From assembly GCA_910575665.1 (NCBI GenBank), contig CAJTFB010000013.1, positions 1 to 64,000 of the forward strand: DNA of 64,000 nt, in the 5' to 3' direction. The notes under the pieces are model-generated. The model had not been told where the DNA came from. It did no database searches and was given only the letters and a program-made list of their open reading frames with translations. Of the stretch, positions 25,947-60,510 are shown one piece after another. Position numbers and translations under genes: made by a program. Source of the stretch: Eubacteriaceae bacterium. Its GTDB lineage: Bacteria > Bacillota > Clostridia > Lachnospirales > Lachnospiraceae. Each line of letters opens with the position of its first letter. Within the stretch, counting starts at the first letter, position 1.

Positions 25947-25965
25947 AATGAAAGGAAGTGTTATC

Positions 25966-26526
25966 ATGTCACCTGCATTGGCGCAAGAAAAACTTTATAC
26001 TGTCGATGACATTTATTCCCTGCCGGATGGGCAACGTGCGGAACTGGTCGATGGCCAGATTTATTACATGGCACCGCCAAGCAGAAAACATCAAGAGATC
26101 TCTGGAGAACTTTTTGGCATCATCCGGGAATACATCAGATCAAAAAACGGTTCATGCAGACCATACATTGCTCCCTTTGCCGTATTCTTAAATGAAGATG
26201 ATAGGAACTATGTAGAACCGGATATCTGCGTCATATGTGATCCTGACATGTTGAACGACAAAGGATGCAGCGGTGCCCCAGACTGGATCATCGAAATCGT
26301 ATCGCCGGGCAGCCGGCGAATGGACTATTTTACAAAACTTTTTAAATACCGCACTGCCGGTGTGCGTGAATACTGGATCGTGGATCCAGACAGAAACCGT
26401 ATTACTGTATACGATTTCGAGTCAGAGGATACCCAGGACTATACTTTTTCCAGCGCAGTAAAAACAGGTATTTATGAGGATCTGATTATCGACTTCTCCG
26501 AACTTGCTGGTCTGCTGGATCTCTGA
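25966..26526 (+). CDS. Uma2 family (DUF820) putative restriction endonuclease
   Basis: 186 residues from the ATG at 25966, which has AAGGAAG seven bases before it; an ATG six codons earlier lacks one. The Uma2 fold is a PD-(D/E)xK nuclease: YVEPDICVI gives the first acidic residue and PDWIIEIVSPGSRRMDYFTKLFKY the E-x-V-S-P motif and following lysine. Members are very common in Cyanobacteria and Lachnospiraceae; their cellular role is unknown. A palindrome lies directly upstream, and a decayed gene and a MITE-like element follow. Confidence 0.85.
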   Translation: MSPALAQEKLYTVDDIYSLPDGQRAELVDGQIYYMAPPSRKHQEISGELFGIIREYIRSKNGSCRPYIAPFAVFLNEDDRNYVEPDICVICDPDMLNDKGCSGAPDWIIEIVSPGSRRMDYFTKLFKYRTAGVREYWIVDPDRNRITVYDFESEDTQDYTFSSAVKTGIYEDLIIDFSELAGLLDL

Positions 26527-26730: not shown

Positions 26731-26771
26731 TTATGATTATCTGATTGAGGGAAAAGAATAACCGGGACAGA

Positions 26772-26923
26772 TAGCTCGACGGCGCCAATTTGAACCCTGC
26801 CTCCGACTTGTGATTTCACAATTTGCTACGTCAATATCAATCAACGTACCTCCATTCCGTTTCCTTGTAAATTGGAAAATCACAAGCGGTGGTCGAAGAT
26901 TTCGGATTGGCGCCGTCGAGCTA
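26772..26923. mobile_element. MITE-like element, longest copy (152 bp)
   Basis: The terminal arms, about 57 bases each, are inverted and imperfect: TAGCTCGACGGCGCCAAT at the left and ATTGGCGCCGTCGAGCTA at the right, with a second paired block CTTGTGATTT/AAAATCACAAG inside. There is no open frame that could encode a transposase. The left 56 bases match the 197-297 element almost exactly. It lies at the 3' boundary of the AT-rich helicase operon. No target duplication was seen. Confidence 0.7.
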
Positions 26924-27047
26924 GAGTACACCGCTCCGGTGTCATTTTCATATATAAGGAAAAAAGAAGAAAATAAGGAAGATACTATAACTGCACATCA
27001 TATCGTTACAAACTCCTAAACAACCAAAAGCAATACGTCATTGCAAA

Positions 27048-27986
27048 CTAATCAACTACAAAAAATTTATTAAGACATGAGTCCCCGATCTCCCTTAACA
27101 TATATACCCTTTTATTTTCAATCAAATGAAAAACATTATCTGTATAACGTCTCTGGCCTACTATCCATAATTTCCGTTTTGCTCTGGAAAAAGCAACATT
27201 GAGGCGTTTGTAATTTGCAAAAAAGAAACTGGTTCCCCAATTTCTCGTAATAGAAAAAATCACCACGTCACTGTCACGTCCCTGTATAGAATCCACCGTA
27301 TCAATTCTAATTTTTAGATATCTTTTCATTTCTTTGATATCCTTATCTCCAGTCAGCATTTGAATTAATTTGGATTTCTGGCCTTTATATGGTGCAATAA
27401 CGCTAAGCTGCTTCTTTTTTCCCAAATTTGCGCATATGGCTGCCTCCTCTTTTAATATTTTCTTTATAACACTAATTTCATCCAAATTGAATGGCGAATG
27501 TTTCTTTTCCATAGTAGAGACATCTGGCCATTTATTTTCCGTTAAATAATCCGCCCAGACAACACTTTCAGGAATAGAATTATTTTCTATTCCATTCAGC
27601 AATTTTCCCTGGTAAAAATATTTACTAACTATGGCAGATATTTCATCTGACATCCTGTATTGCCTATTCAACATGACAAATGCATGTGCGGGAATCCTAT
27701 TGTATACTTCTTCAATGTATGTATCCGTTTCAATATGCTTGACTCCAGTCTCTTCCATCGCCTGTCGGTCCAACTCTGTATATACCGGGGACAACTGCAC
27801 CGGATCACCAACCATCACTGCCCTTTTTCCCCAGATTAAGGCAAGGATGATTTCAGGAAAAGAAATCTTAGAGTTTTCATCTATAATCACATAATCAAAT
27901 GGATATTTAGCATTAAAAGAAACACCACCTATTCCATTGCAAGTAATGCCCACAAATCTACTAGTATAAAATAACATATCTCTCAT
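27048..27986 (-). CDS. UPF1-like SF1 helicase, C-terminal part (split by UAG)
   Basis: 312 residues from the first ATG after the interruption. It holds helicase motifs II to VI: VIIDENSKIS (Walker B, DEN instead of DEA), VGDPVQLSP, IAPYKGQKSKLI, DTVDSIQGRDSDVVIFS and NVAFSRAKRKLWIVG. The upstream piece at 28008-28652 carries Walker A. The two pieces are in the same reading frame, separated by one TAG and six further sense codons before this ATG plus one (IESNPRR). Either the gene is newly broken, read through, or translated as two polypeptides: GAAGG lies before an ATG at 27977. A last gene of the five-gene AT-rich operon. Confidence 0.8.
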   Translation of the reverse strand: MRDMLFYTSRFVGITCNGIGGVSFNAKYPFDYVIIDENSKISFPEIILALIWGKRAVMVGDPVQLSPVYTELDRQAMEETGVKHIETDTYIEEVYNRIPAHAFVMLNRQYRMSDEISAIVSKYFYQGKLLNGIENNSIPESVVWADYLTENKWPDVSTMEKKHSPFNLDEISVIKKILKEEAAICANLGKKKQLSVIAPYKGQKSKLIQMLTGDKDIKEMKRYLKIRIDTVDSIQGRDSDVVIFSITRNWGTSFFFANYKRLNVAFSRAKRKLWIVGQRRYTDNVFHLIENKRVYMLREIGDSCLNKFFVVD

Positions 27987-28007
27987 CCTTCGAGGATTAC
28001 TTTCTAT

Positions 28008-28652
28008 CTATTTTTTGAGAAAATCAGCAACACCATGAGGTATCTCCTTATGCAACAAACGTTCCCGATAGTCTAACAAAACTTTATTTGCCTGAAATCT
28101 TTCCCTTGTTTTTTCCTCATCAAATTCTTTATCATTAATCCGCAATCCCATAAAATTTAAGAATTTATTTTCTAAATTATGAAAAATATTATTTACTGCC
28201 ACATGTGTTTCCGAACATACTAAAATTCTGGCCTCTGATTCCTTCAAAAGAATCTGACTGCATATTTCCGTTATGACACTTGTTTTTCCCGTACCAGGAG
28301 GCCCCTGTATCAACGTAAAGCACTGACCACTTAAGGCCATATTTACTGCCATTTTTTGCGAATCATTTAATTTATCCGAAGAAAAGTTATTTAATCTGAT
28401 ATGTTCTTGAGAAATAGATTCTGGATGAATGAAGGCCAATAACAACTGAGGATTTGCAAAAACTCCTGAGCGCACATTGTACAATGCTTGTTTTTGACGG
28501 CGTATTTTTGCCAAGTTTCCAATTTGTTTTTCCTTCTCCTCATGAATTTGAATCAATTCCTCCCTTTTATTCAAATATTTAAGCCAATCCTGAATTTCCG
28601 TATTCCATCTAACAAAAGCTTCCTCACGCGTCATATGGCCTCTCCTTTTCAT
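28008..28652 (-). CDS. UPF1-like SF1 helicase, N-terminal part (split by UAG)
   Basis: 214 residues ending at TAG. A helical lead (about 1-90) comes before the Q-motif LNDSQKMAVNMAL and Walker A GPPGTGKTSVITEI near residue 115, then motif Ia ILVCSETHVAVNNI. The first ATG overlaps the stop of the upstream gene (ATGA); an ATG at 28634 has AGGAGAGG in front and may be the real start. Joined with the next frame it would make about 530 residues, shorter than most UPF1/DNA2-type proteins but with every SF1 motif. Such helicases act on RNA or DNA and recur in antiphage systems. Confidence 0.8.
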   Translation of the reverse strand: MKRRGHMTREEAFVRWNTEIQDWLKYLNKREELIQIHEEKEKQIGNLAKIRRQKQALYNVRSGVFANPQLLLAFIHPESISQEHIRLNNFSSDKLNDSQKMAVNMALSGQCFTLIQGPPGTGKTSVITEICSQILLKESEARILVCSETHVAVNNIFHNLENKFLNFMGLRINDKEFDEEKTRERFQANKVLLDYRERLLHKEIPHGVADFLKK

Positions 28653-28996
28653 AATATCACTTTTTGCTGTCCATCAAAATTCTTCAATATTCGTCCGACG
28701 GCATCTTTCGCTTTTTCCTGCTTGTCAAAAAACGTAATTTGCTCGTCCTCTAGCATATTACCAACCTTCAAAACCTCGGATGTCAACTGACATTCCCCCG
28801 TATTCATGTGAATAAATATCAATCCATTATTATGTAATTTTGCAAGTGAATCTGCTATGATTCTATATGGAAAAACATCTAAAACATTACTTATTTTCTT
28901 TCCATCATCAATACCGCATTGTATCAAATCAAAAACTAACCTATCGCAGATATTATATTCAAATCCCAATTTCAAAACAAAAATATTTTTCTCCAC
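28649..28996 (-). CDS. Small winged-helix-like protein of the helicase operon
   Basis: 115 residues from a GTG at 28996 with GGAGGT six bases upstream; an earlier GTG has no site. The middle, FDLIQCGIDDGKKISNVLDVFPYRIIADSLAKLHNNGLIFIHMNTGECQL in outline, reads like a winged helix: helix, recognition helix, then a beta-hairpin wing. The C-terminus ends with DAVGRILKNFDGQQKVIL. No family was recognised. It overlaps the helicase start by 4 bases and begins 3 bases after the coiled-coil gene, so it is translationally coupled to both and is likely a DNA- or protein-binding adaptor for the helicase. Confidence 0.65.
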   Translation of the reverse strand: MEKNIFVLKLGFEYNICDRLVFDLIQCGIDDGKKISNVLDVFPYRIIADSLAKLHNNGLIFIHMNTGECQLTSEVLKVGNMLEDEQITFFDKQEKAKDAVGRILKNFDGQQKVIL

Positions 28997-28998
28997 GC

Positions 28999-30267
28999 CT
29001 ACACCTCCAATAAGTTCTGACACGAATCCATCAACTCATCAAATTTTTTATCCATATATTCTTTCTTCTGATTACGAATTTCTTTTATTTTAGCAAAATA
29101 TGACCGCTTTTTTTTCCATAATATATCAATCTCCGATTGCAGTTCTGCAATGTCTTCCTGCAAACTAATATATTGGGCACTTAAATTTTCTTGTTCTTTC
29201 TTATATTTATCAATCTCCTCATTTCTTCTATCCTGATTGGCCTGATAATAATTGATTTGTTCCTGAACAGTTTGCCATTCACTATTACAACCTTTCTCTT
29301 TTCTCTTATTTATATCACGCTCATATTGCGCATGATCTATATCGGAACTTAAGCTTTTTAGTCTGGCAATTTTTTCACCAAACTCCGGGTCATGCTTATG
29401 AGATATTTTAATCGCCTTAACAATCCGATCAAGCCTTTTATGTTCTTGACAAAGTGCATTATTTCTTTTATTTGCCTTATCAGCTTCTCCATGATAGTAT
29501 CTTTCGCGTTGTTCTATTTCTTTTATTTGAGCAATACACTCCTGCTTTTTCACCACATCAGACTTGTTCTCCTCAATCAAAGCATTTTTTTTGCATTTAA
29601 TATCTTTTTGTGTATTTTTGACAGTTCTTATTGCTGAAATCTTTTCATCTCTTTTCGTTTCCCTATCCTTAATCTCCGCTGTTATTAAATCCACATCCCG
29701 CTGGATAATTGATATTTGATTTTCATATTCCTTGCATTCCCTGCTATTGCTAAAATAATTCAACCAAATCTTATGTGTATCTTTTTTTAATTGTTTTTTT
29801 CTATCATCTACTTGTTGCTGTTGTTCCTTCAACGCATTCATTCTATGCTTCAAAACTTCATTTGCCTGCTCAAATGCTGCTATACCTGTTTTACAGTCTT
29901 CTACCCTTCCAAAAAGTTGTTTTCTTACAATTTTTAACTGCCACAATTCTTCTTGAAATATTTTTAATTCTTCTTCCACAGTTTTTGCGGCATACCATGC
30001 CTTTTTTGCGGCATCGTCAGAACTGTCATGCCACAATTTCTTCTGCAAATCATTATACTTTACCTTGCCAGCTTTTTTCCCTATATCCTCTGGGACTATT
30101 TCCAGCAATTTCTGATTCTGGAACAAAATCAGATAATTATACTGCGTATCCTCCATAGCATCTTTTATCAAATCAATCAGTTGCTTGCATTCATAAATGG
30201 ATGATTTATAATTTTTTTTCCATTGTTTAATCATATGTATTCTTGTGTTACATAATTTTTGATTCAT
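28999..30267 (-). CDS. Long coiled-coil protein of the helicase operon
   Basis: 422 residues from the ATG at 30267, which has AGGA seven bases before it (a GTG two codons earlier is the alternative). From about residue 85 to the end it is an almost unbroken coiled coil rich in Glu, Lys and Gln (EEELKIFQEELWQLKIVRKQL, AQYISLQEDIAELQSEIDIL). There is no Walker motif, so it is not an SMC ATPase. The N-terminal 80 residues are a short helical domain. It overlaps the upstream small gene by 4 bases. It looks like a scaffold or sensor arm; no family was recognised. Confidence 0.7.
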   Translation of the reverse strand: MNQKLCNTRIHMIKQWKKNYKSSIYECKQLIDLIKDAMEDTQYNYLILFQNQKLLEIVPEDIGKKAGKVKYNDLQKKLWHDSSDDAAKKAWYAAKTVEEELKIFQEELWQLKIVRKQLFGRVEDCKTGIAAFEQANEVLKHRMNALKEQQQQVDDRKKQLKKDTHKIWLNYFSNSRECKEYENQISIIQRDVDLITAEIKDRETKRDEKISAIRTVKNTQKDIKCKKNALIEENKSDVVKKQECIAQIKEIEQRERYYHGEADKANKRNNALCQEHKRLDRIVKAIKISHKHDPEFGEKIARLKSLSSDIDHAQYERDINKRKEKGCNSEWQTVQEQINYYQANQDRRNEEIDKYKKEQENLSAQYISLQEDIAELQSEIDILWKKKRSYFAKIKEIRNQKKEYMDKKFDELMDSCQNLLEV

Positions 30268-30557
30268 ATACACATCCTGCTTTTTTTCTTCAAAATACGA
30301 ATTCCAAAATTACACTGGGAATAATCCAGCAAAACTCCCAACAAACTATTATATAGTTCTCTGGCATTTTCATATTCCTCAACCTTTTCCTGCATAAGCC
30401 TGTTATAAGCCCTATTAAGATAGTTCCCGTAATCTGAAACTTCCACCTGCTTCTCACTAATATATCGCTGCATATCTTCAGCAAGAACTTTTACATTCTC
30501 TCCTTTTTCCCGAAGCACGGTCGCATAAAATCTTGCCAATCTCTTTTTAAATAACAT
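30264..30557 (-). CDS. Small helical protein of the helicase operon
   Basis: 97 residues, highly charged and helical (LFKKRLARFYATVLREKGENVKVLAEDMQRY, YNRLMQEKVEEYENARELY). No membrane segment and no known family. It lies between the large first gene (4-base gap) and the coiled-coil gene (4-base overlap). GAGGTGAGAGA precedes the ATG. It probably binds one of its neighbours. Confidence 0.62.
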   Translation of the reverse strand: MLFKKRLARFYATVLREKGENVKVLAEDMQRYISEKQVEVSDYGNYLNRAYNRLMQEKVEEYENARELYNSLLGVLLDYSQCNFGIRILKKKSRMCI

Positions 30558-30561
30558 TCTC

Positions 30562-31845
30562 TCACCTCAATAACGGAATAATATCTTCTGCATGTACTTT
30601 TGCAATAAAAGTATCTTCATTTAACTGTTCAATTATTGAACTCACCATTTTCTTTACTGTATCCGTCTCGCTCCCATCGGACAAATCCATTGTTTGTAAT
30701 ACATGAATAAACTTTTCATTGACTTCTCTTTTGTGCCTCTGGCTTTCGATAGTAATTTTCTGTTCTCTTTCAATTTTTCGCAACTCCGAACGTTTTGTCT
30801 CAATTTCACCATTAATATATTTGGCAACAGAAAGGTATTGTTGATATTGCTCTTCCACTCCTTGTTGAATTTTTAACTGAAAATCACTTTTAAGTTCCTG
30901 CATCGCCACATTATATTTCACCTCCAATTGCGCTATTCGCTGTTTCTGCATATCAAGCATCGTCTGCTTCAACTGATATGCCTTGAAATCCCATTCTTTT
31001 CTCCTATCCACAAACTCTTTTTCCATATTTATCAAAACTTTTTTTCGATAATTATACTCTTCAAAATCAGAAATTATATTATACATTGGTACCAGCCCCT
31101 TTAAACTGAAGCCTGATGTTCCCTGAAAATCAGAAATACCATCTATAATTTGAAGCGGCACCACGGAAACGCCATCTAGAAATTCTAACTGATGATAATA
31201 TGATACAAGGGAATCCTCAATCCTTGCATAGGCATCTTTTTGTGCATTATTAATAATTGTAGTCCGAATACATGCAGTCACGCCAGTACAAAACATGCTT
31301 CCCATGATTACTCCTGCAGGCGAAGCAAGCATACTACCAAGTGTTGCTCCCAAACCAACAATATCATTACATATCCTTCTCCCAAATCCCCAAGCTGCTC
31401 CCGTTAGACTTCCTAAAACATTATCCAATGCAGATTTAGAAGTTCTTTCAATAAGTTGGTCTGCATCTATCTCGCCTGTATAATGCTTATAGGCACTTCT
31501 CGAAAAATCATATAAAAATCCACTTGTAAAGTCGACAGACACCTCTCCTATTGTCTCCAGCCCCAAGGCTTCTTTCAAAACGGAACTTATTCCGGTCTTG
31601 GTTCCGTCATGTAACGCCTCTGTCATAGAATTGCTTAAAACCCTCACAAACTCTTTATAAGACAACTCATCTGAATTTTTATAAAACAAATTAACAAGTC
31701 CCTCAAAGGTATTTAATGTAAAACTTGCAACCATACTTCCACCAACATCTATAGCCGCTTCCTGTCCTGCAATAACCTTGTATACATCTTCATTTATCAA
31801 TTGCAAAGGTGCATATCCTATTCCTTGATATTCTTGTTCTTTCAT
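30562..31845 (-). CDS. Glycine-rich membrane/coiled-coil protein, first gene of the helicase operon
   Basis: 427 residues in two halves. The first, to about residue 265, holds a glycine- and alanine-rich hydrophobic stretch (GSLTGAAWGFG, DIVGLGATLGSMLASPAGVIMGSM) of the kind seen in glycine-zipper or pore-type membrane segments. The second, about 275-400, is a coiled coil (MEKEFVDRRKEWDFKAY, EIETKRSELRKIEREQK). No signal peptide and no known family was recognised. It starts the AT-rich operon; GGGGAT lies before the ATG. A membrane-acting effector or anchor is one reading; nothing in the sequence proves it. Confidence 0.65.
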   Translation of the reverse strand: MKEQEYQGIGYAPLQLINEDVYKVIAGQEAAIDVGGSMVASFTLNTFEGLVNLFYKNSDELSYKEFVRVLSNSMTEALHDGTKTGISSVLKEALGLETIGEVSVDFTSGFLYDFSRSAYKHYTGEIDADQLIERTSKSALDNVLGSLTGAAWGFGRRICNDIVGLGATLGSMLASPAGVIMGSMFCTGVTACIRTTIINNAQKDAYARIEDSLVSYYHQLEFLDGVSVVPLQIIDGISDFQGTSGFSLKGLVPMYNIISDFEEYNYRKKVLINMEKEFVDRRKEWDFKAYQLKQTMLDMQKQRIAQLEVKYNVAMQELKSDFQLKIQQGVEEQYQQYLSVAKYINGEIETKRSELRKIEREQKITIESQRHKREVNEKFIHVLQTMDLSDGSETDTVKKMVSSIIEQLNEDTFIAKVHAEDIIPLLR

Positions 31846-32662: not shown

Positions 32663-33457
32663 ATGAAACCAGGGGTATACACGGCAACAAAAAAAGACGG
32701 AACCTTATATTACCGCAGTTCCATCACATATCAAAATAAACATATCAGTCTCGGCAGTTTTTCTACAGAAGATGCTGCCAGTCTCGCCTATCATCTGGCA
32801 GATTCCATTCTCCAGGATGCCAAATACACTCTGGAGGATTTTTCCTCATGTCCCCAGGCTCTTTCTTTTCGCAAATGGGTAACGCTTATCAATTTTCGGG
32901 ACAATGGGATCTATATAAAGACGCCGGTCTATCTGCACGAGAAATATTTTCATTACTATTTTTCACCGGAAGATTATTATATTTTCGATATTGACGATCT
33001 CTTTTACTATTCCACCCACACCATAACGAGGCGGGGCGGGCATCTCTTTGTCAGCGATTACGGTATGCAGGTAAACATTCTGTCCCGGTACGGCATAAAA
33101 AATTATGGGGTAGCAGGAAGGGATTTTCTTTTCGTCAATGGAAATATGCGGGATTTCCGCTATGAAAATATCGAGATTATCAATCGCTATCATGGTGTCT
33201 TCCGAAAAACACACCAGGGAAAAACCCTGTATGAAACGCGCATTCACTGGAAAAGCGACTTTATCGTAGGACGCTATGAATCAGAGACCGATGCCGCCGT
33301 TGCCTACAACAAAGCGGCATCGGTGCTGATCCGAAAAGGATACGATAAAAAATATCCTGTCAACTATGTAGAAGAGCTCTCCCCGGCAGAGTACAAAAAC
33401 CGTCTGGAAAAGCTGAAGATCTCAAAGACGATCACAGATCTGAAGGAACTGATCTGA
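32663..33457 (+). CDS. Double AP2-like DNA-binding protein with HNH-like centre
   Basis: 264 residues. Two AP2/integrase-like three-strand-plus-helix units are visible: residues about 4-50 (GVYTATKKDGTLYYRSSITY, LGSFSTEDAASLAYHLAD) and about 183-230 (GVFRKTHQGKTLYETRIHW, VGRYESETDAAVAYNKAA). Between them lies a stretch ending FVNGNMRDFRYENIEIINRY, which has the shape of the second half of an HNH homing nuclease (NG...D.R..N) but lacks the catalytic His pair. Bacterial AP2 proteins are mostly phage or homing-nuclease derived. GGAG lies before the ATG. It may be a domesticated regulator or an inactive homing enzyme. Confidence 0.7.
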   Translation: MKPGVYTATKKDGTLYYRSSITYQNKHISLGSFSTEDAASLAYHLADSILQDAKYTLEDFSSCPQALSFRKWVTLINFRDNGIYIKTPVYLHEKYFHYYFSPEDYYIFDIDDLFYYSTHTITRRGGHLFVSDYGMQVNILSRYGIKNYGVAGRDFLFVNGNMRDFRYENIEIINRYHGVFRKTHQGKTLYETRIHWKSDFIVGRYESETDAAVAYNKAASVLIRKGYDKKYPVNYVEELSPAEYKNRLEKLKISKTITDLKELI

Positions 33458-48563: not shown

Positions 48564-49865
48564 CTAGATTTCCAATTTTTTCTTTAATTCCTGTAAGTTT
48601 CCCTCGATCTTATCCACATTCACAAAATGCAAGTTGACAGTTGTTCCATCACCACTTTCAAACCGGATAGGGTCATGGCCTCTCATCTCATCATTCATTG
48701 GATACAACAGCCAGATCTCAGATGTTTGATATTTTTTTGAATAAGCATACATCTGATACATATCAGCCTGGGATATTCCATAATTGGCACGCTCATTGTC
48801 GATGAGACTTTTCCACTTGGTGTCTAAAATAACGGTCCGTTCCCCTTTTCTCATTACAATATCTGGTCTAAGCGCAAACTGACGCCTCGGTTTCTCAAAA
48901 AGATAATGGCCCCTATCCTGACTGGAAACATCCCAACCGTCCAGGCACATAACCTTTTTTAATTGCCGTGCCACATAGCTCTCATATACCCTTTCCATCG
49001 GAAACAACAGTGCCCTTGATGTTGTGGAGCCAGAAAACGTTGTAAAACTCTTGTTCATCAAAAATACCCTAGACCATTGCAACAACCCTTCATAGTATTT
49101 TGTGTTTCTATTTGTTACCACGTTCGAAAAATCCTTCTCATAGTTTGTCGATGCCTGAACCATTTCAAATGCAGTAAGAAGCTGCCTTATCTCTTTCGAG
49201 TTTTCGGCACTGGAGGTCAACTTTTGTAACTTCGATAACGTCGCTTTCACAAGCTTGTTTTCTGGCATGTTCGGATGGAATTCCTCGTATGCGACGTAAA
49301 AGCGCTCTCTGTGAGCCAAATTTGCTCTCACGTGCTGATTTACAAGAAGTTTTCCCTTGTAATAACGCTGATTATCCTCTTGCTCTATGTAAGCGGACTG
49401 AATACCTCGCTTTACCAACTGTCTTGCTTCCTGTAAGTACATATTGATAAACAACTCATACAAATTCATCTGATCAACTTTCAGAGAAGCATCGTGAAAC
49501 ACCTTACTCGGAAAGTCTTTCATGCTGCGGAGCATTCGGAGGAACACTTTCTTTGTCTGGGCATTTCCTTCGTCTTCACCATCACCTAAAAAGATCTTTG
49601 GCAAGATCTGAATCTGAAAACCATTGTTCATCTGTATCAATCCAACATAATTTTTAATAGAAACAACTTCACCTATATTTCGTCGGCAGCCAATTGTCAT
49701 AAAATCTAATATTCCTGCACTCTCCTCGTCTCCAGAAAACTCTCGAATAAATGCTACCAAATTGTCGAATTCTTTCCGATTCAAATATTTATATTTTTCG
49801 TCATTCTTGTAATCCTCGTTACAGATAATTGAGTCAAACTCTTTTACCTCAAAAGGTTTACTCAT
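48564..49865 (-). CDS. mcrC: McrC, nuclease subunit of a type IV restriction system
   Basis: 433 residues. An N-terminal beta domain and a middle helical part (YYKGKLLVNQHVRANLAHRERFYVAYEEF, a family hallmark) lead to a PD-(D/E)xK nuclease. Its core reads FALRPDIVMRKGERTVILDTKWKSL, with Asp, Asp and Lys in place. McrC cuts DNA after stimulating the GTPase McrB on modified (usually 5-methyl- or hydroxymethyl-cytosine) DNA. It directly follows mcrB (14-base gap) and overlaps nothing else. Confidence 0.94.
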   Translation of the reverse strand: MSKPFEVKEFDSIICNEDYKNDEKYKYLNRKEFDNLVAFIREFSGDEESAGILDFMTIGCRRNIGEVVSIKNYVGLIQMNNGFQIQILPKIFLGDGEDEGNAQTKKVFLRMLRSMKDFPSKVFHDASLKVDQMNLYELFINMYLQEARQLVKRGIQSAYIEQEDNQRYYKGKLLVNQHVRANLAHRERFYVAYEEFHPNMPENKLVKATLSKLQKLTSSAENSKEIRQLLTAFEMVQASTNYEKDFSNVVTNRNTKYYEGLLQWSRVFLMNKSFTTFSGSTTSRALLFPMERVYESYVARQLKKVMCLDGWDVSSQDRGHYLFEKPRRQFALRPDIVMRKGERTVILDTKWKSLIDNERANYGISQADMYQMYAYSKKYQTSEIWLLYPMNDEMRGHDPIRFESGDGTTVNLHFVNVDKIEGNLQELKKKLEI

Positions 49866-49879
49866 GTCGTCACCACACT

Positions 49880-52000
49880 TTACAGAATTTCTTTATAGCT
49901 ATTGAGGTTCGTAAAAGCCGTCTGATTGATCGAGTATCTCTTCTCTGGAAGATCTATAACATCCTCAACGTTTCCTTTAAAAATGTCCTTTGCTACTACC
50001 TTATGATCAACTATAAACTTCAATTCGCTGCTGCTCTTTGCATTGTCACCAAGTACAAGTTGTATCTTCTTATAATCTTCATAGAAGTATTCCTGCAAAA
50101 GCGGAATGACCGACTTCTCAAAGATTGACTGCAACTTTTCAATCGTGGCATTCTCCCCCTGAAGTTCCGTAAAAAAGGCATGTCCGATGGTGTGCTCTCT
50201 ATCATACAAGAATGTGATACGCTCATTTATCTTCTCAAGCATTGCTGCCACATTCAAATCTTCTACCTTATCCGCATGAATGTCTACAAGCACCTGTGTA
50301 TCCGGCATCATTTCGATAAACTGGAATCGTCTACGAAGTGCAGTATCCATCAGTGCAATAGAACGATCTGCCGTATTCATCGTTCCCAATATGTAGACAT
50401 TAGATGGAACAGTAAATTCCTTACCTGAATATGGTAATACAGCGGATGCCTCTTCTGGCATTCCCTCTCTCTTTGTGCACTCTATCAGAGTAATCAATTC
50501 TCCGAATATTTTAGAGATATTTCCGCGATTGATTTCATCAATAATAAAAATATGTGGTTCGGCAATACATTTTTCCGCCTTTTCACAAAATTTCTTAAAT
50601 ATTCCCGGTTCTATGGTATATCCAATTTCCCCTTTTACATCATCGACTACAGGTTTAATGCCTTCTATAAACTCCTCATAGCCGTATGACTGATGAAATG
50701 TAGTAAATGCAATCCTTCCTGCTTTCTTAAGTTCATTATATCTTGCCATTACAGCAGCATAATCTGTAAGCTCTTCCCGTGACATTCCATCACAGATTGC
50801 TACTGCATAGATTGCAGAATTATAGGTTTTTCCTGTTCCAGGAGGGCCATACAATATTAAATTTTTATCATATGCCATGTTATATGCTTCTTCCATTTCC
50901 TGGAACACACCCCTTTCCTCTAATTTTTTAATTGCTTCCATCAATGGCTCTCTCAGTTTATAGCTAAATGTGCCTTCACTACCTGTCGGTAAAGCTTTAC
51001 CCCAAAACAAAACCGGCCAATACTGATTTTCCCCAGTTTCTCTAGTATGAAGTGGGCAGTTTGTTTCCTTATGTACTGCCTCAGCCACATGAGTCGCATT
51101 CCTATTATAGTGCGAAGCAGCGCTTCCATACTTATTTGCAATCTGCTTGCAAGAGGCAACTCCACCCATTAAATACAAATAATATATAGTATCGAGCCAT
51201 GTACGTTTTACCAGGTTTTCATCACCAAGTATCCTCTCATATTCCTCTTCTATAATCCCCGGGTCATATTCAGAAAGACTTGGAAAATACTCCATTGTTT
51301 CAATACCAATCACATACTCATAATAAGGAATAAGAGCTTCTATCACTTTTGATATCTCTGTGTGATAATATAGATTTGTCTCATCGCCTTTGCGTTCAAC
51401 AAATTTGCATATTTGTACTTTCTTTATCTTGCCGCTAACCACTTCCTGTTTTATTTCTTCTTGAGATTCATTGATAACGACAGGATTTCCCCATTCATTG
51501 CTACCAGACACATAGACAAGCCCTGCTGCCGTATTAAGCGGAAGATCTAAATGTGAATGATACTGACTCATCTCCTCCTTATTTGTACCATCATTTTTTA
51601 TTTCCAAGCTGACTCTATATCTCGTGCTATCTTTCTTAATTCGTTCCACAAAAACAGAAATACTTATCGGAATATCAGCATATTTACTATACTTAAGCTG
51701 CGCCCACAAATATCGTCGCGTCTTGATATTCGAGCTATCAAGCCAAGTCATTGGCATATATTTATCTAACTTATATTTTTCGGCAAAAACTGTCGCCATT
51801 TTTTTTAGTTCAGCAATTGCAACTCGTCCTCTTTGCTTCACCTCTAAAAGTCGTTGTTTTTCTTTTTCCTCAATTCCATCCGCCTCAGGATTTGAATATG
51901 GAACACCTGCATTGTCCCTTAAGTAATTTAATACTCCAATATAATTAACCTCTGTATTTTCTTCAAATGTTATCCCGTACTGATTATCCAATCGTATCAC
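49880..52000 (-). CDS. mcrB: McrB, GTPase subunit of a type IV restriction system
   Basis: 706 residues. The C-terminal AAA+ domain has Walker A LYGPPGTGKTYNSA near residue 385, Walker B HIFIIDEINRGNISKIFGEL and the GTP-specific GTMNTADRS near 543, the mark of McrB over other AAA proteins. The long N-terminal part (about 1-370) carries the DNA-target module: an MrcB/DUF3578-like segment around residues 60-190 and a wHTH-type region (YYLYLMGGVASCKQIANKYG) that differ from the E. coli domain, so the recognised modification is unknown. An arm of the dispersed repeat family lies 24 bases upstream of the start. Confidence 0.93.
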   Translation of the reverse strand: MIRLDNQYGITFEENTEVNYIGVLNYLRDNAGVPYSNPEADGIEEKEKQRLLEVKQRGRVAIAELKKMATVFAEKYKLDKYMPMTWLDSSNIKTRRYLWAQLKYSKYADIPISISVFVERIKKDSTRYRVSLEIKNDGTNKEEMSQYHSHLDLPLNTAAGLVYVSGSNEWGNPVVINESQEEIKQEVVSGKIKKVQICKFVERKGDETNLYYHTEISKVIEALIPYYEYVIGIETMEYFPSLSEYDPGIIEEEYERILGDENLVKRTWLDTIYYLYLMGGVASCKQIANKYGSAASHYNRNATHVAEAVHKETNCPLHTRETGENQYWPVLFWGKALPTGSEGTFSYKLREPLMEAIKKLEERGVFQEMEEAYNMAYDKNLILYGPPGTGKTYNSAIYAVAICDGMSREELTDYAAVMARYNELKKAGRIAFTTFHQSYGYEEFIEGIKPVVDDVKGEIGYTIEPGIFKKFCEKAEKCIAEPHIFIIDEINRGNISKIFGELITLIECTKREGMPEEASAVLPYSGKEFTVPSNVYILGTMNTADRSIALMDTALRRRFQFIEMMPDTQVLVDIHADKVEDLNVAAMLEKINERITFLYDREHTIGHAFFTELQGENATIEKLQSIFEKSVIPLLQEYFYEDYKKIQLVLGDNAKSSSELKFIVDHKVVAKDIFKGNVEDVIDLPEKRYSINQTAFTNLNSYKEIL

Positions 52001-58090: not shown

Positions 58091-58215
58091 TTACAGCCAT
58101 ACGCCCCAGTCTCCATAATGGAATGTGCCACTACCATGATGAAGTTTTCCGTCTGCCTTCAACTGCCCAAATGCTTCTCGCATACGTATCAATATTTCAG
58201 GCTTTATATCCAATG
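58091..58215 (-). pseudogene. C-terminal stump of a deleted metallo-beta-lactamase gene
   Basis: In the frame one step off the kinase C-terminus the minus strand reads LDIKPEILIRMREAFGQL, then a GSGTFHYGDWGVWL end and a TAA at 58091. That end fits the C-terminus of MBL-fold hydrolases whose N-terminal start is fused to the kinase just upstream. The zinc-binding middle is gone. Together they mark an internal deletion. Confidence 0.5.
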
Positions 58216-58871
58216 AATGATGAATAACAATGCGTTTCCTCCCAATGACGATATTCACTAATAATGTAAGTTTTTGTGTCTATTTTATCTATTGTAAACC
58301 AGTGGTCCATTCTTTTATCTATTTCTTCAATTTTTTTATTTTTAACATTTACTTCAACTTCAGTTATGTCAAACCAATAATCTTCATCAATAAGAAGATA
58401 GTCAATTTTATAATTCTGACACTGTCTCAATATTTCAGCATTATCCCTGCGCACTGCTTCTAGTGTACACCCCGCATCATCGATTCGATCTTCTATTACA
58501 CATGCATACTTTTTAATATCATCAAAATGATTCTTAATATACTTATCACTCATAACTAGGCAATAATATTTTATATTGTCCAAATACTCTGGTTCAAAAT
58601 CTTTCGACCAATCAAAAGGTATATAACATCCTTCCACAATAAGATTCTGCTTATTCTCAATCGCCGTCTTAATGATTTCGGTCACGATCGGCCATAGATA
58701 ATCTGTCAGAGCACTCTCGGCACTCACGGGAGTAAGCTCCGTATTTCCGCTTCGAATAAGTCCCATTTTTAAGTGGTCTATAGATAAATACGGATACTTA
58801 TATTTTTCCAGTAATTTTTGGGCAAGCGCCGTCTTTCCTGTATGGGACGCTCCTGTAATCAAAATTATCAT
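58197..58871 (-). CDS. P-loop kinase fused to the N-terminus of a lost MBL hydrolase
   Basis: 224 residues from the ATG at 58871, five bases after AAGGAGG. Walker A ITGASHTGKTALAQKLL at residues 5-21 begins a small kinase resembling 2-phosphoglycerate kinase-like or adenylylate-type ATPases; IVEGCYIPFDWS is the strand-3 region. The last 37 residues, MDHWFTIDKIDTKTYIISEY followed by RHWEETHCY, match the standard start of a metallo-beta-lactamase-fold hydrolase, then the frame ends soon after. A gene of that hydrolase, deleted in the middle, would explain this: its far end is still seen at 58091-58215. The kinase part is intact and may still work. Confidence 0.75.
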   Translation of the reverse strand: MIILITGASHTGKTALAQKLLEKYKYPYLSIDHLKMGLIRSGNTELTPVSAESALTDYLWPIVTEIIKTAIENKQNLIVEGCYIPFDWSKDFEPEYLDNIKYYCLVMSDKYIKNHFDDIKKYACVIEDRIDDAGCTLEAVRRDNAEILRQCQNYKIDYLLIDEDYWFDITEVEVNVKNKKIEEIDKRMDHWFTIDKIDTKTYIISEYRHWEETHCYSSFIGYKA

Positions 58872-58935
58872 TGGATCCTCCTTATTCTCTTTATACAACC
58901 AGCTTTTCCAGCACCTCTACAATTTCCTATTCCTT

Positions 58936-59484
58936 TCAAGTGGTCAACACAATAGAATTAATATTTTGTATCTGCTCTATGATAAAATCTACGTTTTCTT
59001 TAACAGATTTTGTTCCATCAATTCGTAAAACAGGACATTTTAAAGACTGCACCCATTCTTCAACAGTATTCTCGGATCTTGATTTAATAAGATCAAAGAA
59101 TTTTTCTTCTTGCTCATGTAAATCTCCACCTTTTAAAATTCTTTCACCAAATTTCTGAAAAGAACGATCTCTAACCCGCTGTATTCGAATATCCTTTGGA
59201 ACATCAATTAATACAACATATTGAAAAAACGGATAGATATTTTCTCCATAATCTCCTTTTACAGAGGCAAAAACAAAGTTTTCATGTGCCCTTATCTCAC
59301 TCCTAAGCAACCTTTCTACCTCCTCACGAGAACGTGGATTGGCATAAATATAATCTGGGTCTGTTTTAGGAAAATATAAATCCTCATTATCTATAAAGTG
59401 AAAATGCAGCTTTTTCGCAAGAGCTTTGCCTACTGTACTCTTTCCGCTGCCATTTAAGCCACATACGATAATCCCTGTTCCCAT
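58936..59484 (-). CDS. Small AAA/P-loop nucleoside-kinase-like protein
   Basis: 182 residues from the ATG at 59484, five bases after AAAGGAGG. Walker A VCGLNGSGKSTVGKAL at residues 6-21, an Asp pair in HFIDNEDLYF and the lid-like RVRDRSFQKFGERILKGGDLHEQEE. It looks like a shikimate- or adenylate-kinase relative of unknown substrate. It lies 64 bases upstream of the other kinase gene in the same direction; the two are not closely related. Confidence 0.78.
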   Translation of the reverse strand: MGTGIIVCGLNGSGKSTVGKALAKKLHFHFIDNEDLYFPKTDPDYIYANPRSREEVERLLRSEIRAHENFVFASVKGDYGENIYPFFQYVVLIDVPKDIRIQRVRDRSFQKFGERILKGGDLHEQEEKFFDLIKSRSENTVEEWVQSLKCPVLRIDGTKSVKENVDFIIEQIQNINSIVLTT

Positions 59485-59580
59485 AAGTTCCTCCTTTAAA
59501 AGTCCCATTATTATAACGATATAAATAGTATAACACAAAACATATGGAATTGGTAAACTAATTGAAATTCTTCAGAATAA

Positions 59581-60510
59581 TCACAGTTCACCTTGGGCAA
59601 ATAGGTTATCTTTTCCCATGCCGCATACGAATGGATTAGAGTCATAATAATGGCAGAAATCCAAAAAGTCAGAACGCTGTTGTGAATCCTTCATAATCTT
59701 TACAAGTAATTCATTCGGAAGAGTTCTTGCATATGCACCGGGACCTGCCATTTTAATATTTTTTACGCCATAACATTTCAGTATATTTTCTAATTCATCC
59801 GGCATAAAAGTGTATGTAATGCACCACGGTACACCCCCTTTTTCATACTCTTCAATTTCACTGTCGCCACCCATGAGTCCTTCCTTCCATAGCTTTATAA
59901 CGGCCTCCTTGCTGAAATGAAAAGCTTCGATTGCATTTGTTTTATTTCTGATGCACCATTTTACAAATGGATCATCACAGGTTTCATCTAATATGAACTG
60001 GTTTTTTTGTATTGGATTTGTTAAGTATGGAAGACACCCTAAACGACTTGATACACTTATCATAATTCGTTTGCGGCATATGCGTATAAGTTCGCTGATA
60101 ACCTTTTCCTGATTGGGATAAGTATATGAAATAGGGGCGTCAAAGGAAATCACCATATCAAAGGATTTATCGTTGAAAGCCTTCAAATCTTCCAATGCCC
60201 CGTTCACAAAGGTTATTTTATCAAGAACTCCTTCTTTTTCCGCCAATTCCTTTGCCTTATCTATCATAGGCTGTGATATATCAAAATGTGTAACCTCGCA
60301 ACCATGTTTTGCAAGGAGAATGGAAAATCTTCCACATCCTGCACCACCATCAAATACAGTCTTCATTCCATCCAAATGAGAGAGCAGTTCCTTTTCAATA
60401 TGGCTTTTTTGGATAATGTCATCAATAAAGGTTTCTTCGCGGTGACTTTCCAGTTCACCTTTATCCGGCATATTCCATAAACGTTCCGATATTTTTCTGC
60501 TATAATCCAT
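59581..60510 (-). CDS. Class I SAM-dependent methyltransferase
   Basis: 309 residues. Motif I VFDGGAGCGRFSILLAKHG near residue 52, the acidic end of strand two in VTHFDISQPMIDKA, motif II FDMVISFDAPISYTYP, and a helical C-terminal extension (about 190-309). No family-specific feature was seen, so substrate is unknown; the second half with EAFHFSKEAVIKLWKEG is unlike the small-molecule ubiquinone group. It is transcribed toward the two kinases (96-base gap). Confidence 0.8.
   Translation of the reverse strand: MDYSRKISERLWNMPDKGELESHREETFIDDIIQKSHIEKELLSHLDGMKTVFDGGAGCGRFSILLAKHGCEVTHFDISQPMIDKAKELAEKEGVLDKITFVNGALEDLKAFNDKSFDMVISFDAPISYTYPNQEKVISELIRICRKRIMISVSSRLGCLPYLTNPIQKNQFILDETCDDPFVKWCIRNKTNAIEAFHFSKEAVIKLWKEGLMGGDSEIEEYEKGGVPWCITYTFMPDELENILKCYGVKNIKMAGPGAYARTLPNELLVKIMKDSQQRSDFLDFCHYYDSNPFVCGMGKDNLFAQGEL

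Follow-up and report, generated by a model that had tools for sequence, protein, structure and literature searches.

Results

What do the closely packed minus-strand genes at positions 27,048 to 31,845 of contig CAJTFB010000013.1, from a Eubacteriaceae bacterium, encode, and is the system that they form still whole? Positions 1 to 64,000 of this contig, the whole stretch that was analysed, are referred to here as the window. An earlier note on this DNA had proposed a five-gene operon containing a UPF1-like helicase, possibly an undescribed defence system. In our analysis the locus is better read, on balance and with some reservation, as a divergent copy, which has probably lost its function, of a mobile defence module made up of four genes (A-B-C-D). 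This module would be related to Mokosh and to the CnuH/CnuE arm of CoCoNuT, while lacking the kinase half, a MkoB-type fused effector and McrB. The features concerned are collected in Table 1.

Table 1 Features of the locus and of its surroundings (window positions; aa, amino acids)
Feature	Position	Strand	Description
Helicase D, second piece	27048..27986	-	312 aa; motifs II-VI; PF13087 8.6e-38; MkoA 1.1e-58 (PADLOC)
In-frame TAG interrupting helicase D	28008..28010	-	No stop in this region of relatives
Helicase D, first piece	28008..28652	-	214 aa; Walker A, motif Ia; PF13086 5.3e-19; MkoA 1e-34 (PADLOC)
Gene C	28649..29023	-	124 aa; predicted free-standing winged helix; 22% identical to Acetivibrio C in alignment
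Gene B	28999..30273	-	Coiled-coil gene; 424 aa from GTG, ATG 30267 the likelier start; position equals B in relatives
97-aa ORF	30264..30557	-	Possibly first part of B; no sequence similarity to B shown
Gene A	30562..31845	-	427 aa; hydrophobic segment with a glycine zipper; helical C-terminal half; N-terminal domain (~210 aa) of the homologues missing
Uma2-family putative endonuclease	25948-26526	other strand	Just downstream of the operon; PF05685 2e-33; PADLOC PDC-S03 1.2e-44
MITE-like element	26768-26925		158 positions; terminal inverted repeats
264-aa protein	32663-33457		Weak AP2 match (E 0.013); perhaps homing-endonuclease-like
McrBC pair	48564-52000		McrC 48567-49865 (PF10117, 1.1e-93); AAA_5 protein 49883-52000

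A packed operon with interrupted frames

The tight packing described in the earlier note is borne out by the open reading frames (ORFs) listed for the window, which follow one another at spacings of 4, -10, -25 and -4 bases, with 21 bases between both helicase pieces. By coordinates, the overlap at the coiled-coil gene is 4 bases if translation starts at ATG 30267. The count of five genes does not hold, since an in-frame TAG splits the helicase into two ORFs, and a whole five-gene system is not supported: the helicase is interrupted, A has no N-terminal domain, and the 97-aa ORF may be part of B. The stretch is AT-rich as stated, with a G+C content of 34.8% against 43.7% for the window, but it is not unique in this, as positions 58197-60510 (35.4%) and the McrBC genes (38.6%) are comparably low.

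The statement that the helicase alone has a recognisable family stood, as A, the 97-aa ORF, B and C received no weighty Pfam, NCBIfam or PADLOC assignment. Pfam and PADLOC were run on the window and two relatives, PHROGs on window A as well as on A, B and C from two relatives, and NCBIfam on the window; none of A, B and C was assigned to a housekeeping family in these scans. The PDB was searched with the A, B and C sequences and with profiles of A and C, to no avail (best E 0.13).

The gene order recurs, also on mobile elements

The same order, A followed by the gene or genes at the B position, C and D, is kept in all eight opened loci that hold A, in answer to the question whether these genes are found together elsewhere. 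Besides the window, these loci lie on plasmids of Streptococcus salivarius, Polaromonas and Acinetobacter, in Acetivibrio, in a Lachnospiraceae metagenome-assembled genome (MAG), in Flavonifractor and on a phage contig; loci found repeatedly, at the same place or on the same contig, were counted once. A tblastn search of 72,556 plasmid records with the window A gave one match, to the S. salivarius plasmid (E 2e-13, 97% of the query), and the best plasmid match of the window helicase falls on the same record (39.7%), where A and the helicase are separated by a small gene and two coiled-coil-like genes. Acetivibrio mesophilus, the Lachnospiraceae MAG and Flavonifractor were recovered with a two-sequence A profile across 84,980 species (three relatives among 132 pattern matches), and the viral contig with a larger A profile (one of 29 pattern matches). 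The S. salivarius helicase matched 421 plasmid records, and three were opened from among the 30 matches listed. Reached from the helicase alone, these three are the loci of Polaromonas and Acinetobacter, with A upstream, and one of Aliarcobacter, which has a kinase-helicase and no A. Polaromonas A matches the window A at 3.5e-08, and the Acinetobacter locus (A. soli) is the one opened of three records with A.

Other searches yielded few or no further copies, and the module therefore looks rare, the pattern scans being lower bounds. As a single-sequence query, the window A was found in no phage record, viral contig or genome contig and in none of 298 other genomes of the family. Matches in 28 of 397 other genomes of a phylum sample (E 0.005-0.098) were read as chance or coiled-coil matches. 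Polaromonas A was absent from the viral contigs, megablast of the operon against the plasmids gave nothing, and a D profile at 1e-60 found none in the 397 other phylum genomes. Four of 396 other family genomes matched the second piece of D at 1e-20; the open frames concerned are 1051-1177 aa long.

The genes around these copies point to mobility. On the phage contig, a portal-type gene, a C5-methyltransferase gene, a gene for an HNH protein and, by eye, a terminase-type gene precede A, and capsid-type genes (also by eye) follow D. Directly before A on this contig (L043:6241-7923) lies a 560-aa protein with no Pfam or PADLOC match at 0.001. Two serine recombinases lie upstream of the Acetivibrio copy, and a transposase follows it. 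The S. salivarius plasmid is circular and carries the Gabija genes GajA and GajB about 9 kb off, DUF262/HNH-type genes lie directly downstream of the module in A. soli, and the PADLOC candidate PDC-S01 lies upstream in the Lachnospiraceae MAG. Four of the seven other loci have defence-type genes on or close to them among the selected neighbours, the Lachnospiraceae one being only a PADLOC candidate.

Helicase D and the winged-helix protein C

By its AAA_11/AAA_12 domains and by motifs I-VI, which were read from an alignment, the window D is a UPF1/DNA2-like superfamily 1 (SF1) helicase, with profile matches to SMUBP-2 (5e-61) and UPF1 (3e-58). Both pieces lie in the same frame, and the TAG sits between Walker A and motifs II-VI. 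The first piece is 38% identical to the intact S. salivarius helicase, and in all seven relatives D is a single continuous polypeptide of 495-585 aa. Recoding of the TAG was considered and rejected; because TAG ends 15 of the 47 long ORFs in the window, it is an ordinary terminator here. The closest PADLOC models for D are those of MkoA, matched in the helicase half only by Flavonifractor (2.9e-111) and Polaromonas (4.7e-101), and Flavonifractor D covers only positions 557-1082 of the 1112-position MkoA model. In a tree of 13 rows, D of the eight loci falls on one side of a branch (100/98) with the five others opposite, so that D groups apart from four kinase-helicases, though rows are few and the program warns of long branches; the window helicase itself sits on a long branch.

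Gene C is predicted to encode a winged-helix protein. The AlphaFold2 model of its Acetivibrio homologue has a winged-helix fold (H-H-H-beta-hairpin; predicted local distance difference test, pLDDT, 85.7). In PADLOC, the window C matches the N-terminus of MkoB weakly (E 0.022), and three of the eight C proteins, which measure 124-161 aa, match this region in all (9.7e-05, 0.022 and 0.044), over about positions 16-90 of the 610-position MkoB model. BLASTP between the window and S. salivarius C proteins was not significant (E 0.46).

Genes A and B

In each of the seven other loci, A combines an N-terminal domain bearing E, D and QxK residues with a glycine zipper. The pattern G[FY]xAE occurs in seven of seven sequences (six A proteins and one protein of an AAA operon) and QxK in the same seven, six by pattern and the phage A by eye as QSKM; the D residue was judged by eye. 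The window A aligns with its homologues from their position 211 onward and shares the motif LxPxYN[IL]ISDxxEYxxRKK with the Bacillota members, so the domain and its E...D...QxK residues are absent. The glycine-rich membrane segment that the note had seen in this gene exceeds chance, with 8 GxxxG-type pairs within 60 residues, equalled by 2 of 300 shuffles; in six A homologues and one related protein, 0-1 of 300 shuffles reach the observed value.

The N-terminal ~210 residues of five A homologues match nothing in the window by tblastn at E up to 1. The frameshifted remnant beside the operon is for this reason not the lost domain of A, as far as the search sees, and that candidate was rejected; neither of its two ORFs matches a Pfam or PADLOC family at E 1, and NCBIfam gave a match only at 0.13. 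Three weak matches were not relied on: Flavonifractor A to LeoB (0.0022) and, in the zipper segment only, to phrog_16692 (2.5e-06), and Polaromonas A to Metal_resist in a coil region (7.6e-05).

The coiled-coil label of B is drawn from weak SMC- and coiled-coil-type matches. Among the aligned Bacillota members, the phage B being left out, B is 26-35% identical, a figure inflated by coiled coils, and no pairwise similarity was detected between the window and S. salivarius B proteins. The 97-aa ORF is possibly the first part of B, because 97 and 424 aa together come close to the length that B has in four relatives (534-555 aa). S. salivarius B is two annotated genes with the middle in a third frame, and A and B of A. 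soli are in pieces, so damage is not confined to the window. Sequencing error may lie behind the broken frames.

Comparison with known systems

Mokosh (MkoA/MkoB; PADLOC PDLC03920-03923) is, within PADLOC, the nearest relative of D, which matches the helicase half of MkoA in two relatives and in the window pieces, and the small C protein resembles the N-terminus of MkoB in the three cases given above. We take the first half of MkoA to be a Ser/Thr kinase, and MkoB is presumably a winged helix-turn-helix (wHTH) domain fused to a C-terminal effector. D has no such kinase half, and the kinase of Mokosh type I is therefore absent; kinase motifs (HRD and D[FY]G) were seen in the kinase-helicase loci (L056-L058). 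Unlike MkoB, the wHTH protein of the module has a gene of its own, upstream of the helicase, and no MkoB C-terminal part, and the module adds A and a coiled-coil gene.

The comparison with CoCoNuT made in the earlier note proved a good lead. The sections of PMC11090510 on these systems describe a UPF1-like helicase with a wHTH protein in the Type II/III cnuHE arm, a separate coiled-coil protein in Type III-B, and, in some operons (SpoVK-type Type III-A extensions), a glycine-zipper protein of PD-(D/E)xK fold; the fold is called inactivated and a related zipper bacteriocin-like. A resembles this last protein by description and through its relatives in AAA operons. In the same sections, an elongated wHTH protein fused to an effector is given as the typical companion of helicases of this family. 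The helicase and wHTH genes of the module are adjacent, but the wHTH protein is free of an effector and lies upstream, on the other side of the helicase, as judged from the CoCoNuT description. No McrB/CnuB or McrC/CnuC appears among the listed ORFs and annotations of the eight loci, where not every neighbouring ORF was scanned.

Operons of Clostridia built around an AAA protein (L050-L052) encode a protein with the same N-terminal residues as A and a glycine zipper; the profile comparison with A gave a probability of 99.0 (E 8.4e-18, 349 columns). They differ in that the partner is a CDC48/FtsH-type AAA protein with Pfam AAA and lid domains (two of the three were scanned) and in that no UPF1-like helicase or C was noticed in their ORF lists. 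By eye, L050 and L052 also hold a WYL-type regulator, and L052 has two dynamin-family genes downstream. Cronobacter plasmids (L069, L070) encode a WYL regulator, an A-like 471-aa protein and a 1069-aa protein annotated as hypothetical. In a further genome of the family (L055:907-6546), a 1169-aa UPF1-like helicase is accompanied by a winged-helix protein (MkoB N-terminus, 3.5e-05) and by two short coiled-coil-like genes. There, in contrast to the module, no A was noticed, and the helicase groups with the kinase-helicases instead of D; it shows no kinase motifs in its first 160 residues.

By the features tested, the module is neither CoCoNuT, as no McrB was seen, nor Mokosh, as it has no kinase half and no MkoB C-terminal part. 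In a limited literature search we found no description of the A-B-C-D set, and as far as the Pfam, PADLOC, PHROGs and NCBIfam scans and this search reach, it is uncatalogued.

Surroundings of the operon

The MITE-like (miniature inverted-repeat transposable element) sequence that the note placed at one boundary is present but does not mark the locus. At least ten other copies occur in the same genome, over positions 5-142 of 158 at 80-89% identity, with 40 of 66 candidates scored; the element is on this account a genome-wide repeat and was rejected as a mark of the locus. The McrBC genes, which the note had put 17 kb away, were found 16.7 kb off as McrC and an AAA_5 protein. They were rejected as part of the module, McrBC being part of it in no relative opened. 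Genes for a Uma2-family putative endonuclease and for a 264-aa protein are listed in Table 1.

Discussion

By analogy, the module most likely works like the helicase-wHTH core of Mokosh and CoCoNuT. In an intact copy, D and C would act as the nucleic-acid sensor, B would be a coiled-coil scaffold bridging sensor and effector, and A would be the effector, with a nuclease-like domain joined to the glycine-zipper membrane segment. Once D and C engage invading nucleic acid, A would be switched on, cutting nucleic acid, damaging the membrane or both. A defence role is suggested by the relatives, the mobile contexts and the selected neighbours. The defence idea of the earlier note survives to the extent that these genes recur together on plasmids, on a phage contig and beside recombinases, some near defence genes, but not as an intact five-gene system. 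In the window, the missing domain of A, the interrupted D and the two frames at B suggest that the copy has probably decayed.

Several observations weigh against this account. The window pieces retain every helicase motif, which is uncommon in an old pseudogene, and A is still an open frame. The AlphaFold2 model of Acetivibrio A is poor (mean pLDDT 40.4; predicted template modelling score 0.24); because it failed, the nuclease fold of A is argued from the residues and from the published relative, whose fold is called "inactivated". Five of the eight C proteins have no MkoB match, and a profile comparison of C with four MkoB-type proteins encoded downstream of kinase-helicases gave a non-significant probability of 5.6. 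B of the window and of Polaromonas are equivalent by position only. The defence neighbours were chosen by eye (10 proteins from 5 loci, of which 8 matched), without a control set.

The retained motifs would also suit a window copy that functions in fragments, a reading that accepts the same module and differs on the window copy only. Here D would be two polypeptides that assemble, the second made by re-initiation at ATG 27977, B would be two coupled proteins, and A would be a nuclease-free membrane effector. ATG 27977, the 11th codon past the TAG, follows a 5-base Shine-Dalgarno match, as strong a match or stronger being found at 19 of 419 internal in-frame ATGs; the 97-aa ORF and ATG 30267 overlap as ATGA with a 4-base match; and the open 427-codon frame of A follows a 6-base match. 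The match at ATG 27977 was spotted after the fact, however, and the D frame is uninterrupted in all seven relatives. No second genome with the same arrangement was found, and the window helicase sits on a long branch. We regard functional fragments as unlikely, though deserving consideration. Still bolder, and rather improbable, is the proposal that A-B-C-D is an undescribed defence system in which helicase and free winged helix control a nuclease-glycine-zipper membrane effector via the coiled-coil bridge. On this proposal helicase and AAA sensors could swap the effector, and the window would hold a living subtype with no nuclease and a two-piece helicase.

Two other explanations concern the module itself. 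It could be no distinct module at all, and instead a Mokosh system or CoCoNuT fragment that lost components, in keeping with MkoA as the best PADLOC models for D and with the three C proteins that match the MkoB N-terminus. Against this, A-B-C-D recurs in every opened locus holding A, in Bacillota and Pseudomonadota alike, and D groups apart from the kinase-helicases within the limits of the tree; we give this explanation little credence. The mobile contexts, which are the clear ones, and the relative with a bacteriocin-like zipper (as worded in the sections of PMC11090510 cited above) would agree with a module that serves mobile elements otherwise, in plasmid or prophage maintenance, competition or bacteriocin-like protein secretion. 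We consider such a role doubtful, as helicase-wHTH relatives are described as defence systems in the pertinent sections of PMC11090510 and PMC11291487, and defence-type genes accompany some of the loci. A probably decayed copy of a mobile defence module is the reading that we prefer.

If the intact module defends against phages, it would add a kinase-free, McrB-free branch to the helicase systems of Mokosh and CoCoNuT, and one effector type, a nuclease-like domain joined to a glycine zipper, would be common to helicase- and AAA-driven operons. Direct tests are within reach, given the small size of the intact plasmid and phage-contig copies, and from the window copy one would learn how modules of this kind break down or manage without the nuclease.

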